Assembly (NCBI GenBank): GCA_012032525.1
Contig: JAAUSV010000006.1
Coordinates: 1-32,432, forward strand
Direction: 5' to 3'
From: Leptolyngbyaceae cyanobacterium SL_7_1
GTDB taxonomy: Bacteria > Cyanobacteriota > Cyanobacteriia > Elainellales > Elainellaceae
Length of the DNA: 32,432 bases
Shown: positions 26,837 to 32,432 of the stretch, piece by piece
Numbering within the stretch: position 1 is the first letter of the stretch
How the letters are laid out: every line of letters begins with the position of its first letter
Program-made: the position numbers and the translations under genes
The notes under the pieces: generated by a model
Databases searched by the model: none
What the model was told of the DNA's origin: nothing
The model's input: only the letters and a program-made list of their open reading frames with translations

Positions 26837-28159
26837 ATGATGACTGACTCTGCCCAACCCCCCAACGTCCAAGACCTCCGCTTTGTTCGAGTGGTATGGT
26901 GTGACAATGCCAACGTCATTCGCGGCAAAGCCTTTCACACGCGCTTCCTAGCCGAGCACCAAGAACGTGGTGTAGGCATCGCCATGGCACAGCAAGCGAT
27001 TCCGGTGATGTACGATGCGATCGCCCCCCACAGTGGTTTGAGTCCTGTCGGGGAGGTGTGGTTGGTGCCTGACTGGTCAACCTTTGCTCCGTTGCCCTAC
27101 ACTCCAGGACACGGGCGCGCCTTGGGAGACATGATTCACCAAGGAGAGCCGTGGGCACTGTGTCCGCGTGGATTTCTCAAGCGCATGATTGCCCAGGCAG
27201 AGGGGTTGGGGTTGCAGGTCAAAGCGGCATTTGAGCACGAGTTTTATTTGCTGCGATCGACCCAACCCCTACTCCCGGTTGATACAACCGTCTTCGCTTC
27301 CACCCTGGGCATGGACATGAATCATGGCGTGATCGATGCCATCACCGATGCACTAACCCTGCAAGGGATTCCCGTCGAACGCTACTACGCCGAATCGGGA
27401 CACGGGCAACACGAACTCTCGATGCGCTATACCCATGCCCTGCAAGCGGCGGATTGGCAGATCGTATTTCGAGAAACCGTACGGGGGGTGGCACTGCGCC
27501 ATGGGTTGACGGCTTCGTTTCTACCCAAGATTTTTGCCCAACAGGCAGGCAGCGGGTGTCATTTGCATTTCAGTTTGTGGCAGGGAGACATGAATTTGCT
27601 GCCTGCCCCCCAGGGGCTGTCTCCGCTGGCACAGGCATTTGTGGCGGGGGTGCTACACCACCTGCCAGCCCTAATGGCACTGACCACGCCCAGTTGCAAT
27701 TCCTACCGACGATTAAAACCCCACTTTTGGAGTGGAGCGTTTCGCTGTTGGGGATGGGATAACCGGGAAGCCGCCGTGCGCTTGCCCAGCAACCCCACCA
27801 CCCCCAGCCCCACCCACATTGAACTAAAAACCGTAGACGCCTCTGCCAACCCCTATCTGGCGCTAGGGGCAACGATCGCCGCCGGGTTAGATGGCATTCA
27901 GCAGCGGATGACCTTGGGGGCTGCCGTTGCGGTCGATCCGGGGGAATGGTCGATCGAGGAGCAACAAGCGCGAGGAGTCGATCGCCTTCCCACCCATCTA
28001 GGAGACTCGATCGCCCACCTGAAAGACGATGCGGTGTTGATTCGGGCACTGGGCAGCCCACTGGCACAAGCGTTTCTAGCAGTGCGGCAAGCGGAGTGGG
28101 AATTTTTCAAGGCAATGGAGTTGGACGAGGAGGTGAATTTGTTACTGGAGCGGTACTGA
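26837..28159 (+). CDS. Glutamine synthetase-family (GlnA-like) ligase
   Basis: FEHEFYLL, YAESGHGQHELSMRYTHAL, FLPKIFAQQAGSGCHLHFSLW, NSYRRLKPHFWSGAFRCWGWDNREAAVRLP. GS catalytic-domain landmarks. Confidence 0.88.
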   Translation: MMTDSAQPPNVQDLRFVRVVWCDNANVIRGKAFHTRFLAEHQERGVGIAMAQQAIPVMYDAIAPHSGLSPVGEVWLVPDWSTFAPLPYTPGHGRALGDMIHQGEPWALCPRGFLKRMIAQAEGLGLQVKAAFEHEFYLLRSTQPLLPVDTTVFASTLGMDMNHGVIDAITDALTLQGIPVERYYAESGHGQHELSMRYTHALQAADWQIVFRETVRGVALRHGLTASFLPKIFAQQAGSGCHLHFSLWQGDMNLLPAPQGLSPLAQAFVAGVLHHLPALMALTTPSCNSYRRLKPHFWSGAFRCWGWDNREAAVRLPSNPTTPSPTHIELKTVDASANPYLALGATIAAGLDGIQQRMTLGAAVAVDPGEWSIEEQQARGVDRLPTHLGDSIAHLKDDAVLIRALGSPLAQAFLAVRQAEWEFFKAMELDEEVNLLLERY

Positions 28160-28166
28160 CGCCAAG

Positions 28167-28194
28167 GTTAACGAAACCTTACTGACTTGTTAAT
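28167..28194 (+). promoter_or_regulatory. Three GTTAAC/CTTACT/GTTAAT half-sites at 11-bp spacing upstream of the CDF gene (Pho-box-like)
   Basis: GTTAACGAAACCTTACTGACTTGTTAAT; period 11 over three units. Confidence 0.3.
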
Positions 28195-28254
28195 TTAATG
28201 CCTGTTAATCTGAACAAGATTTCACTGTTGCATCACTAAATTTACCGAGTCTTC

Positions 28255-29280
28255 ATGGTATCCGTTACGCAAAGCGAGCATACTTCCGGTGCTGTAAGCC
28301 ATTGGGGTTGTGCCTGTTCAGGGCTGTATGCAGTTGCCATCGATCAGGCGGGGGAGCGCAAGCTGACGCTGTTGGGTGGGGCGGCTGCCCTGTCACTGGG
28401 GTTGCTCTTGGTGGAAATGGGGCTGGGCGTGTTTAGTCATAGCCTTGCCCTGTTGGCAGACGCCGGGCACATGGTTCTCGATGTGGTGGCGTTGACATTA
28501 ACCTGGGTGGCGGCTTGGGTAGGTCGTCGTCCGGCAACTCCCCAGGCTCCGTTTGGACATCGCCGAGTCGAGATTTTGATGGCATTGGTCAATGGCTTGA
28601 GCTTGTTGGCGATCGCCATCTTTGTTGCCCAAGAGGCGATCGAGCGTTGGCAAACCCCGGAGCCTGTTTTGGGTTTGCCCATGCTGGCGGCGGCGGTGAT
28701 GGGGTTGGGCATCAACAGCCTCAATCTCTGGTTGCTCCACCGCGAGAGCCAACAGGATCTGAATCTCCGTGGGGCAATGTTGCATCTGACGATGGATGCC
28801 GTCAGTTCTGTGGGGGTAATCGCGGCGGCAGTGGCGATCGCCCTGGGGGAGTGGTGGTGGATGGATGCGGCAGCCAGTTTGGTGGTGGCAGGTTTAACCG
28901 GATTGAGCGCGTTGCCATTGATCGGGGAAAGTTTGGAGATTTTTTTGGAATATGCTCCTCGATCGGTTGATCCGGCGCAAGTTGAGAAGGCGATCGCTTC
29001 TTTCAATTCCGTCAAAGCCGTGGAGAAATTATTTATCTGGACGATCGGCTCTGCCCAACTTGCCCTGTGCGCCCACCTGACCGTGGAACCACTGACTCCA
29101 GGAGAGCAGAATCGGTTGCTGGTGCGCTTGCACGACTATCTGCACCAGGAGTGTGGTATCCGTGAAATCACGCTGCAATTTCATACAGAGCTGGTAGAGA
29201 CGCCGGAATTGCATCCCATGCTTAACCCAAGCTTAACAGCGTTGTTTCCGGGAAAACACGGAGAACTCTTCTCCGGGTGA
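28255..29280 (+). CDS. Cation diffusion facilitator (CDF/CzcD-ZitB-like) metal efflux transporter
   Basis: SHSLALLADAGHMVLDVVALTLTWVAAW, FGHRRVEILMALVNG, HLTMDAVSSVGVI, C-terminal soluble domain with LCAHLTVE. Confidence 0.93.
   Translation: MVSVTQSEHTSGAVSHWGCACSGLYAVAIDQAGERKLTLLGGAAALSLGLLLVEMGLGVFSHSLALLADAGHMVLDVVALTLTWVAAWVGRRPATPQAPFGHRRVEILMALVNGLSLLAIAIFVAQEAIERWQTPEPVLGLPMLAAAVMGLGINSLNLWLLHRESQQDLNLRGAMLHLTMDAVSSVGVIAAAVAIALGEWWWMDAAASLVVAGLTGLSALPLIGESLEIFLEYAPRSVDPAQVEKAIASFNSVKAVEKLFIWTIGSAQLALCAHLTVEPLTPGEQNRLLVRLHDYLHQECGIREITLQFHTELVETPELHPMLNPSLTALFPGKHGELFSG
29221..29239 (+). promoter_or_regulatory. Pho-box-like 8-3-8 direct repeat at the 3' end of the CDF gene
   Basis: CTTAACCC-AAG-CTTAACAG, about 95 nt upstream of the PEP-CTERM gene start. 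Confidence 0.3.
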
Positions 29281-29332
29281 TAACCTCCGTAGAAGAAGTC
29301 TGAAAATCTATACAGTTCTTCAATTATCTTCT

Positions 29333-30064
29333 ATGCGCATTATTTCACTCTCCCTTCTGGTTGGCGTTGCAATAGCTGCCTCGACGGCTCCTGCGCAGGC
29401 AGCGTCGAGCCTCTATCGCGTTGAGTCGGGCACCACCAGTTTGAGTGTTGATTCCGCAGCATTAGAGCTGTTGGAATCGCTCGGACTGAGCTTCAGTGGC
29501 ACATTTGATACGGTTACGCCAGCGGATGGTTTTGCAGTTGGTTTTGAAATTTTGTCCCCCAGCGATGATGATGCGGTGGTAGGGTCAACCTTCAATTTCA
29601 ATTTTGATACGGCAACTCAAGCCTTTGCTCCTGTGAGCGGCTTGATCGAGCACATTGGTGGCTTGAGCTTTGATGTGGACACGTTTGATCCAACCACTAA
29701 CCCGGATGGATTGGCGCTGTTCTCACCACTGGAAATTGGGGATTTTTCGATCGGGTTTGATGGAGGTTTCTTCATCGCCGACAACGTCACCACCGGATTG
29801 CCTCTGTTTGATTTGGTGGTAAACGATGCACCCAGTTTGGATCAGCGGCAGTTGCAGGTCACGGGTGTCGATGTGTTGGTGTCTTCCAACTTCAATGCAC
29901 TCCTGTCCAATGCCGCAGGTAGCACTGATTTGGGATTGACCGGAGCCAAGATTGGCACGGCTCAGATCGATGCCAATGCTTCCAAAGTGCCTGAGCCTGG
30001 AACAGTGGTGGCGATCGCCCTTGCAGGGGCGGCGGCGATCTTCGGACGGCGACGCGCCGCCTAG
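29333..30064 (+). CDS. PEP-CTERM sorting-domain secreted protein
   Basis: N-terminal signal MRIISLSLLVGVAIAASTAPAQAA; C-terminal VPEPGTVVAIALAGAAAIFGRRRAA. Confidence 0.92.
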   Translation: MRIISLSLLVGVAIAASTAPAQAASSLYRVESGTTSLSVDSAALELLESLGLSFSGTFDTVTPADGFAVGFEILSPSDDDAVVGSTFNFNFDTATQAFAPVSGLIEHIGGLSFDVDTFDPTTNPDGLALFSPLEIGDFSIGFDGGFFIADNVTTGLPLFDLVVNDAPSLDQRQLQVTGVDVLVSSNFNALLSNAAGSTDLGLTGAKIGTAQIDANASKVPEPGTVVAIALAGAAAIFGRRRAA

Positions 30065-30070
30065 GGAGAC

Positions 30071-30537
30071 ATGCACATGCTAAGGCAATGGGGCTGGATC
30101 CCGACAGTGGGGATGGTGATGGCAGGGCGATCGCCCAACCCGCTGTAGCTCAAAATCAGTTGCACATAACTTTGGATGCCCAACCGTCCTCTGATTTTCG
30201 ATCGCTGATACAGCAAGCAGAGTTGGCGGCACAAGGATTGGTGCAACAAGCATTTGCAGCTACTCCCACCGATTCCGTTGTATCGGTAATGGTGTTGGGT
30301 GACTATAACGGGCAAGTGGCTCCGCTGTTAATGGTGACGGTGTCGCGAGACCAATGGCAACGCAGTCCAGCATTGTCTGAGTGGACACGATATTTCCGCG
30401 ATTCTGCGGTGCTGTTGGGCTATGTGGCTCCAACCCAGCGATTGCAACCCGTTGTACCCAGCGTTGCGCCAGTCCCCCTTGCCTACTCCCCCATGCCGCC
30501 CTGGTTGTCCGATATTGAGCCAAATTTCTACCAGTGA
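30071..30537 (+). CDS. Secreted hypothetical protein ending in EPNFYQ, one apparent frameshift at GGG 30125-30127
   Basis: Restoring one G joins MHMLRQWGWIPTVGMVMAG to AIAQPAVAQNQLHITLDAQPSSDF..., giving a signal peptide plus mature domain ending SDIEPNFYQ. Confidence 0.6.
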
Positions 30538-30630
30538 TCAGGACAACTAGAGGACGGCGATCGTTGGCTGTTTCATCTGAATATCTGTTCAACAGCTTGA
30601 ACAATACTTTTCTCTTACAGGGTTACTGAC

Positions 30631-30840
30631 ATGGGTTCATTGTTTAACAAACCACTGCGATCGTTGATTTGGTTTATGGCGGGCTTGCTCTGCGCAATGG
30701 TGATGGCGATCGCTCCATCTACCCCCGTTGCAGCCCAGCACTCAATTTCGACCGATGCAGCTCACGGCATGGTTACTACGTCTGTAGATGGGTTTCAGCG
30801 TGTAGTGGCGTCCCATCTAGAGCCAAATTTCTACAACTAA
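30631..30840 (+). CDS. Small secreted protein (69 aa) ending in EPNFYN
   Basis: MGSLFNKPLRSLIWFMAGLLCAMVMAIAPSTPVAAQHSIS... signal peptide, C-terminal ASHLEPNFYN. Confidence 0.6.
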   Translation: MGSLFNKPLRSLIWFMAGLLCAMVMAIAPSTPVAAQHSISTDAAHGMVTTSVDGFQRVVASHLEPNFYN

Positions 30841-30953
30841 CCCGATCGGTTTCTTCAGCCTCAAGGAGACCAACCCCTCCCGCTGGTGGGTTGCTTTCCG
30901 ACTAGATGGACGCGCTTGGATAAACCTTTTAATGCATCACTCAAGGTATTGCA

Positions 30954-32432
30954 ATGATTCAACTATTTGAACGGTTTTCTCGACAGACTGCCCTGCTGAT
31001 GGCAGGTCTGTTTGCCGCCTTGATCTTAGTGGCAACCCCTTCGCCTGCCTACGCGGCGGGTAATGGCGTCAACGTCATCATCATGATTGGCGATGGCATG
31101 GGCTGGGAAATGGCACGCGCTGCGGCGGTTGCCAATGGCGCACCCCTCTACCAAAACGGTAAAGGTCGGGGACTCAGTTTCCAAAATCTAACTGGTTATG
31201 GATTGGTGACGACCTACGGCACCACTATTCAGGGACCCAATGGCGTGTTTAGCGATGGGAACTCGGCGCTGGATGATTCCAACCCTGTGACTGGACAAAG
31301 CTCCGTACGTCCAGGATTTTCCTTCAAAGCGACCCCCTTCAACGCTGGAACCACACCAACGGGTGGCGCCACCGATCCTTCTCTAGGAAACTTGGTGGGA
31401 TACGAACCCGATCGCGGCGGTCCCAACCCTTGGACTCCTGGCAGCGACCCTGAGTACATCAAGTGGAGCTATCCCGACTCCGCCAACACCGCGACTACGC
31501 TCTACACGGGCGTCAAGAGCTACAACAATGCGATCGGGGTGGATATCTTTGAAAAGAATTTGACCACTATCCTGCAACAGGCGCGGGAATTGGGCAAATC
31601 CACCGGGCTAGTGACTTCCGTGCCGATTACCCACGCCACTCCCGGTGCGGCAACGGCAACGGTCAACCGTCGTGCCAAGTACGATCGCGACTTCCCCGCC
31701 CTCGACAATATCTTGCAGGAAGCATTGGTGAGTGATGAGGACGGCTCTCTGTTCCTGCCCACCGTGTTGTTGGGTGGTGGTCATCCCCTCGACCACGAAA
31801 ACACGATCAACGATCCGGCTCGGAGTTGTGATGCGATTCCTGAGGCAGCAAATCGTCGTCCTGGGGTGTGCTACTTCCCCCCTGGAACAATAACTACGTC
31901 TACATTCGTCAGGCAAACTATGAGCATTTGCAGGCGAACCCCACCAACAACCGCTATGGCTACCAGTTTCTAGAGCGTGGTGCCAATGCGGCAACGACGT
32001 TGTTAAATACCTCGTTGCAACTTGACCCCAACCAGGGTCAGCGCCTGTTGGGCTTGTATGGCGCCCGCGGTCAAAATGGCAATATCCCCGTTAGCTCTGG
32101 CAATGGTGATTACAGCCTGACTGGATTGAACATGTTCTCTGTGTTTAGCACCACTCGCGGTGGACGCCCCACTGTGGCGGAGCAAGCCCAAGATCAGACC
32201 CCCAATCCCGATGTCGATCGCCCCTTACAACCTGGCGAGACCACCGAACAGTTCATCGCCAAAGAGGTCAACGAAAACCCCACCCTTTCTGACATGACCC
32301 AAGCGGCGCTGAACGTATTGGGTAAGGATCAAGATGGTTTCTGGCTGATGGTGGAAGGTGGAGATATCGACTGGTCTGCCCATGACAACAACATGGACAA
32401 CCTGATCGGAACGATGAAGGATTTTGACAAGG
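30954..32432 (+). CDS. PhoA-type alkaline phosphatase, 3' truncated by window, one apparent frameshift at C6 run 31877-31882
   Basis: Signal peptide; VNVIIMIGDGMGWEMARAA; PDSANTATTLYTGVKSYNNAIGVD (catalytic Ser region); SVPITHATPGAATA; second frame GFWLMVEGGDIDWSAHDNNMDN. Confidence 0.92.

Follow-up and report, generated by a model that had tools for sequence, protein, structure and literature searches.

The window, meaning the whole stretch of DNA analysed (32,432 nucleotides), is a single contig from a draft genome that consists of 500 pieces. Towards its end, two adjacent small ORFs, ORF1 and ORF2, finish in the same short tail ahead of an alkaline phosphatase gene (Table 1). An exact 15-nt core, GAGCCAAATTTCTAC, lies at 30517-30531 and again at 30820-30834, in frame both times; it encodes EPNFY directly ahead of the last codon and stop of both ORFs. 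The common EPNFY[Q/N] end described in the earlier note is real and extends well beyond this genome. The same note held that the two ORFs otherwise look unrelated, and their family profiles indeed align only over the last 13 columns, which rules out full-length paralogues separated by an internal deletion.

Table 1. Features of the tailed operon in the window
Feature	Coordinates	Strand	Basis or remark
Pho-box-like tandem TTAA repeats (GTTAACGAaacCTTACTGActtGTTAATTT)	28167..28196	+	88 nt before CDF gene
CDF cation-efflux transporter	28255..29280	+	PF01545 6.5e-39, PF16916; HxxxD motifs HMVLD and HLTMD
PEP-CTERM protein, occasional operon member	29333..30064	+	PF07589
ORF1, exported small domain and disordered tail with tag	30088..30537	+	homologues, AF2 model
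Tag EPNFYQ, C-terminus of ORF1	30517..30534	+	stop 30535-30537
ORF2, 69 aa: N-terminal signal/membrane segment, unconserved linker, tag	30631..30840	+	intact
Tag H-L-E-P-N-F-Y-N, C-terminus of ORF2	30814..30837	+	stop 30838-30840
Alkaline phosphatase PF00245	30954..32432	+	PF00245 2.6e-26 and 5e-16 on two pieces

The usual operon order is zinc-type CDF exporter, ORF1 (optional), ORF2 and phosphatase. The CDF protein of the window has a PF01545 match and an HxxxD motif in both metal-site helices, from which zinc is the predicted substrate. Where a locus has enough sequence, a CDF gene usually precedes the phosphatase; it is absent in one (L060). A PEP-CTERM homologue occupies the same place in G020 and G021, a PEP-CTERM-like gene is found in L120, and most other loci examined have none; this neighbour is an occasional passenger, not a core member. 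The Pho-box-like site has 19/24 matches to three YTTAAYYW repeats at 11-bp spacing (p=0.015 against same-region shuffles). Several other lineages have similar sites around -80 to -88, and 9/40 loci taken singly reach p<0.05. The repeats agree with the consensus published for SphR, CTTAACCT, whose 8-bp repeats are separated by 3-bp linkers (PMC1906773). No Rfam match was found at 28100-31100.

Two of the genes are interrupted in this draft. The earlier note read 30071-30537 as one protein; these 467 nt are not one open frame. The signal-peptide-like start of ORF1 at 30071 (MHMLRQWGWIPTVGMVMAG) is closed by a stop when read in its own frame; the tag and the mature domain lie in the frame of 30088-30537. 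Because the start and the tagged domain differ in frame, ORF1 contains a 1-nt frameshift around 30121-30140, which is either a draft-assembly error or decay; most ORF1 homologues have an in-frame signal peptide. The phosphatase gene runs off the end of the contig and shifts frame within 31820-31892, close to six consecutive C. Its PF00245 match is above the Pfam cut-off and it has PDB relatives. ORF1 and ORF2, searched against Pfam, NCBIfam and PHROGs profiles, have no match near a cut-off.

Architecture of the two tailed families

ORF2 is the smaller carrier, about 62-81 aa long across loci, and it always lies directly upstream of the phosphatase (28-342 nt, median 46, in 56 loci); it was never found elsewhere. 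Its invariant positions in A1 are M1, F15, G18, H62, E64, N66, F67 and Y68. Among 48 distinct tails, E occurs in 46, P in 43, N in 48, F in 47 and Y in 48, while H occurs in all 48, a residue that the search pattern itself imposes on the named loci and that the phosphatase-anchored loci also have. The hydrophobic or membrane core ends a median of 40 residues before Y (range 32-53). An AxA-like site is present in 37/48 by a simple rule, with cleavage uncertain. The ORF2 signal peptide resembles that of the phosphatase (own-pair mean score 35.3 versus -0.8 ± 7.3 in shuffles) and is closer to that of its own phosphatase than to those of others, a comparison confounded by relatedness. In Nostoc sp. 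CCCryo 231-06 (L149), ORF2 is reduced to a tail remnant, SAHLEPNFYQY, beside an intact phosphatase.

ORF1 is a small exported domain with the tag at the end of a low-confidence tail (AF2 model, mean pLDDT 77, beta-alpha-beta-beta order). The distance from LLG at the domain end to Y of the tag is 33.5 ± 1.9 residues, with an unconserved linker sequence; in both families, linker sequence drifts and linker length is limited. Foldseek found no significant match to the ORF1 model in the PDB (best E 0.042, TM 0.32), and no sequence relative was found there either. Homologues occur in 20/36 genomes of the same order. Same-order operons carry ORF1 tails EPNFYD (G020, G021) or NSEPNFYN (G005-G008); next comes a small exported ORF with the ending ESNFYR or SHQE[LQ]NFY[QS], and then the phosphatase. 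Among 16 distinct ORF1 tails, E, N and F are present in 16/16, P and Y in 14/16, and the H of the tag only in L173. All ORF1 homologues found inside phosphatase operons are tagged; paralogues outside the operon have other tails and are untagged. Such untagged paralogues are widespread (L020-L037), with tails that are long and Pro/Thr-rich or short, and match no Pfam family above its cut-off.

Tag codons vary freely at synonymous positions and 0-3 residues follow Y; the tag is conserved at the amino-acid level. Across 15 loci, the 15-nt tags of ORF1 and ORF2 are identical at 11.7/15 nt within a locus and 11.9/15 nt between loci. Because these values are equal, the DNA identity mostly reflects protein-level conservation plus codon coincidence, and gene conversion is rejected as its general cause, L173 excepted. 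In that locus (Chroococcus; L173:1196-1898) ORF1 and ORF2 both end VAASHLEPNFYQ, the same 12 residues with near-identical tail DNA. This is a recent tail copy between the two genes and shows the tail moving as a module.

Spread of the tail and its link to one phosphatase group

An unanchored H-x-EPNFYQ scan of 84,980 genomes, with no stop required, gave 59 stretches, with 40 matches in 39 cyanobacterial records; genomes were sampled, and many of the named loci are close Nostoc relatives. Of these 40 matches, a stop follows after 0-2 residues in 39, and a PF00245 alkaline phosphatase lies 28-342 nt downstream in 38. As for the remaining two, L196 has 56 bases of the locus left, and L147 lies 10 residues from a stop and has no phosphatase. 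Non-cyanobacterial matches have no phosphatase nearby. The C-terminal enrichment and phosphatase neighbourhood that the earlier note had proposed to look for in other genomes are thereby borne out, and its broader claim, that two exported proteins beside an alkaline phosphatase share a conserved motif at their very C-terminal ends, is supported.

A phylum-wide search for EPNFYx-stop led to a further family in which two tagged genes stand in tandem (G064, G161) and to a single tagged ORF2 directly before the phosphatase in G085, G225 and G374. An independent search of 390 genomes, anchored on the phosphatase, found this small ORF again in four families, together with tail variants SHRAPN[FY]YQ that are invisible to the pattern. 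The tail is more than a chance resemblance, because it recurs at the same place in at least four cyanobacterial families with synonymous codons free, and because the stop-free scan placed nearly all cyanobacterial matches beside a stop.

Away from the operon the picture changes to background. In 40 relatives, the relaxed E-x-NFY pattern gives about one match per genome, similar to a reversed control, and six such matches that were inspected all lie in short, non-genic frames of 9-30 residues; exact EPNFY is also at background level in the genomes examined. A tag-like match near L106 is a chance match. The literature search for EPNFY returned one unrelated immunology paper, and we could not find an earlier description of this tail on two exported families beside an alkaline phosphatase.

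The phosphatase itself does not carry the tag: the earlier note had proposed to check its own C-terminus, and the tag is absent from the C-termini of intact homologues. All 43 tagged-operon phosphatases fall on one side of a branch (1 change versus 18.4 in shuffles), a branch that is unsupported in a quick tree poorly supported at depth. Phosphatases of other groups have no tagged ORF upstream. This genome has a second alkaline phosphatase (L119, on C477), likewise with no tagged ORF upstream and with a very long tree branch. Few positions are specific to the phosphatases of the tagged group, and they suggest no docking site.

Possible roles of the tail

The reading we favour, tentatively and with a probability of roughly 0.42, is that EPNFY[QN] serves at the C-terminus as a docking tail that binds a dedicated partner in the periplasm, probably the phosphatase. 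The tag would be a short linear motif that the exported proteins of a single phosphate-scavenging operon carry on a flexible linker. ORF2 would be the minimal carrier, with a phosphatase-like N-terminal signal or membrane segment, a linker of ~40 residues and the hook H-x-E-P-N-F-Y; ORF1 would be a small periplasmic domain bearing the same hook. Both hooks would bind one partner, most likely the co-encoded alkaline phosphatase, whose homodimer would present two equal hook sites. Once docked, the small proteins may help the phosphatase to fold, to load zinc from the co-encoded CDF exporter, or to stay tethered at the membrane.

Docking would explain why otherwise unrelated exported families have only their last ~13 residues in common, why the tail behaves as a mobile module in L173, and why it is confined to one operon. 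A dedicated partner is suggested because exact EPNFY and relaxed E-x-NFY matches elsewhere stay at background level. The low-confidence ORF1 tail fits a motif that might order only on binding. Also in favour are the tagging of every ORF1 homologue found inside the operon, the tie of the tag to one phosphatase group, and the zinc-type CDF ahead of most loci; for a CDF that acts on an alkaline phosphatase, ZNT5-ZNT6/ZNT7 and TNAP offer a precedent (PMC5666860). In an AF2 model of a natural read-through fusion of an ORF2 tail to a phosphatase, tag pLDDT is about 31, in a poor model (mean 60, 24 sequences). That ORF2 is found just upstream of the phosphatase, and nowhere else, also fits a cis-acting leader and counts against docking, as do the few group-specific phosphatase positions, which suggest no docking site; linker lengths near that of the ribosomal tunnel fit a nascent-chain role as well as docking.

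The close rival to docking, possible though less favoured, is accordingly a nascent-chain regulator: translation of ORF2, and perhaps of ORF1, would pause with the tag at the peptidyl-transferase centre until export or pulling on the chain releases it, tuning phosphatase translation in the manner of SecM, VemP, MifM and CutF. The ribosomal tunnel is close in length to the distances from structured element to Y in both families. This reading would explain why ORF2 sits so strictly before the phosphatase and why the spacers are limited, and it draws weight from the likeness of the two signal peptides. Like CutF and CutF-like proteins (cutFOG, Rhodobacter; PMC9973294), ORF2 is a small Sec-exported protein directly upstream of one exported metalloenzyme, as CutF is of CutO, with a conserved C-terminal motif and a metal-transport context. 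As in SecM, VemP and MifM and in the NSP-, NAP- and DGMK-stop arrest peptides (PMC10987492), the ORFs are exported, the conserved residues adjoin the stop, and a structured element seems to stop within a limited range ahead of the motif. That distance, from localisation signal to motif, has a median of 54 in MifM and 71 or 131.5 in SecM (PMC10987492) versus 40 in ORF2, and a docking linker could be limited too. Several features nevertheless speak against a pause. Unlike CutF-like proteins, ORF2 has no PP motif within its last 15 residues (nor a RAPP-type one), no CxxxC, and no detectable stem-loop over the downstream start or ribosome-binding site; 48 regions over the phosphatase start gave a mean folding z of 0.03 and an accessibility of 0.52 versus 0.50 in shuffles. 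The gap between ORF2 and the phosphatase varies widely, and hairpin-rich insertions are tolerated: in three Nostoc strains (L169:306-498 and the same place in L174 and L184) an element with 17-nt terminal inverted repeats (TAGGGCGTGTTTTCAAA) and a strong internal hairpin sits in this gap beside an intact ORF2. Up to three residues may follow Y, and the same tag stands on a second, folded protein, ORF1, which precedes ORF2 rather than the phosphatase. In contrast to the SecM, VemP and MifM type, the motif sequence is different, two genes in tandem carry it, and the downstream gene encodes an alkaline phosphatase instead of a Sec/YidC secretion factor.

Two other readings are considerably weaker than docking or pausing. 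A processing, sorting or turnover tag, read on both tails by a general periplasmic protease, chaperone or export factor, is improbable: the extreme C-terminal position on exported proteins would suit it, and PEP-CTERM/exosortase and other C-terminal sorting tags are likewise short conserved signatures on exported proteins, but EPNFY has no transmembrane helix and no basic tail, and only the operon's own copies were found where many tagged proteins per genome would be expected. Because relaxed matches elsewhere in the genomes examined are at background level and fall in short non-genic frames, a general sorting tag is rejected; of the roles that the earlier note had offered, general sorting, anchoring and processing find no support, given this confinement to one operon type, and complex docking remains, beside the cis-acting nascent-chain role that the note did not raise. 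A secreted peptide signal, in which the C-terminal hexapeptide would be cut off and act as a pheromone, is very improbable. A tiny exported precursor with a conserved C-terminal hexapeptide may be likened to those of Phr/PapR peptides, but the tail is nearly invariant across families where such signals usually diversify, it also ends a folded 150-aa protein, and no receptor gene was seen in the loci examined.

A larger scheme for the whole operon is speculative and on the unlikely side. It might be an assembly module for an exported zinc enzyme, in which the CDF exporter would supply zinc and one or two EPNFY-tailed exported proteins would dock through the same C-terminal hook, joining phosphatase, zinc source and membrane; equally, it might hold a pair of nascent-chain sensors in tandem that share a single undescribed arrest motif. 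As an assembly module it would be a prokaryotic counterpart of ZNT-dependent phosphatase activation, where the CDF zinc transporters ZNT5-ZNT6 and ZNT7 are needed for stabilisation and metallation of tissue-nonspecific alkaline phosphatase, TNAP (PMC5666860). Both systems pair a CDF zinc transporter with an exported zinc alkaline phosphatase; the present one differs in being a bacterial operon with separate tagged accessory proteins, and here the role of the CDF protein is suggested by gene order and HxxxD motifs only.

Alkaline phosphatase is a main phosphate-scavenging enzyme of cyanobacteria, and little is known about how exported phosphatases acquire metal and arrive at their site. The accessory proteins of one phosphatase group are marked by a conserved tail that is easy to recognise, and this offers a direct handle on the question: a pair of small genes, a motif of five residues and a single enzyme assay. 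Should the tail act on the ribosome instead, it would represent a new arrest motif, one that controls a nutrient-scavenging enzyme and not a secretion factor.
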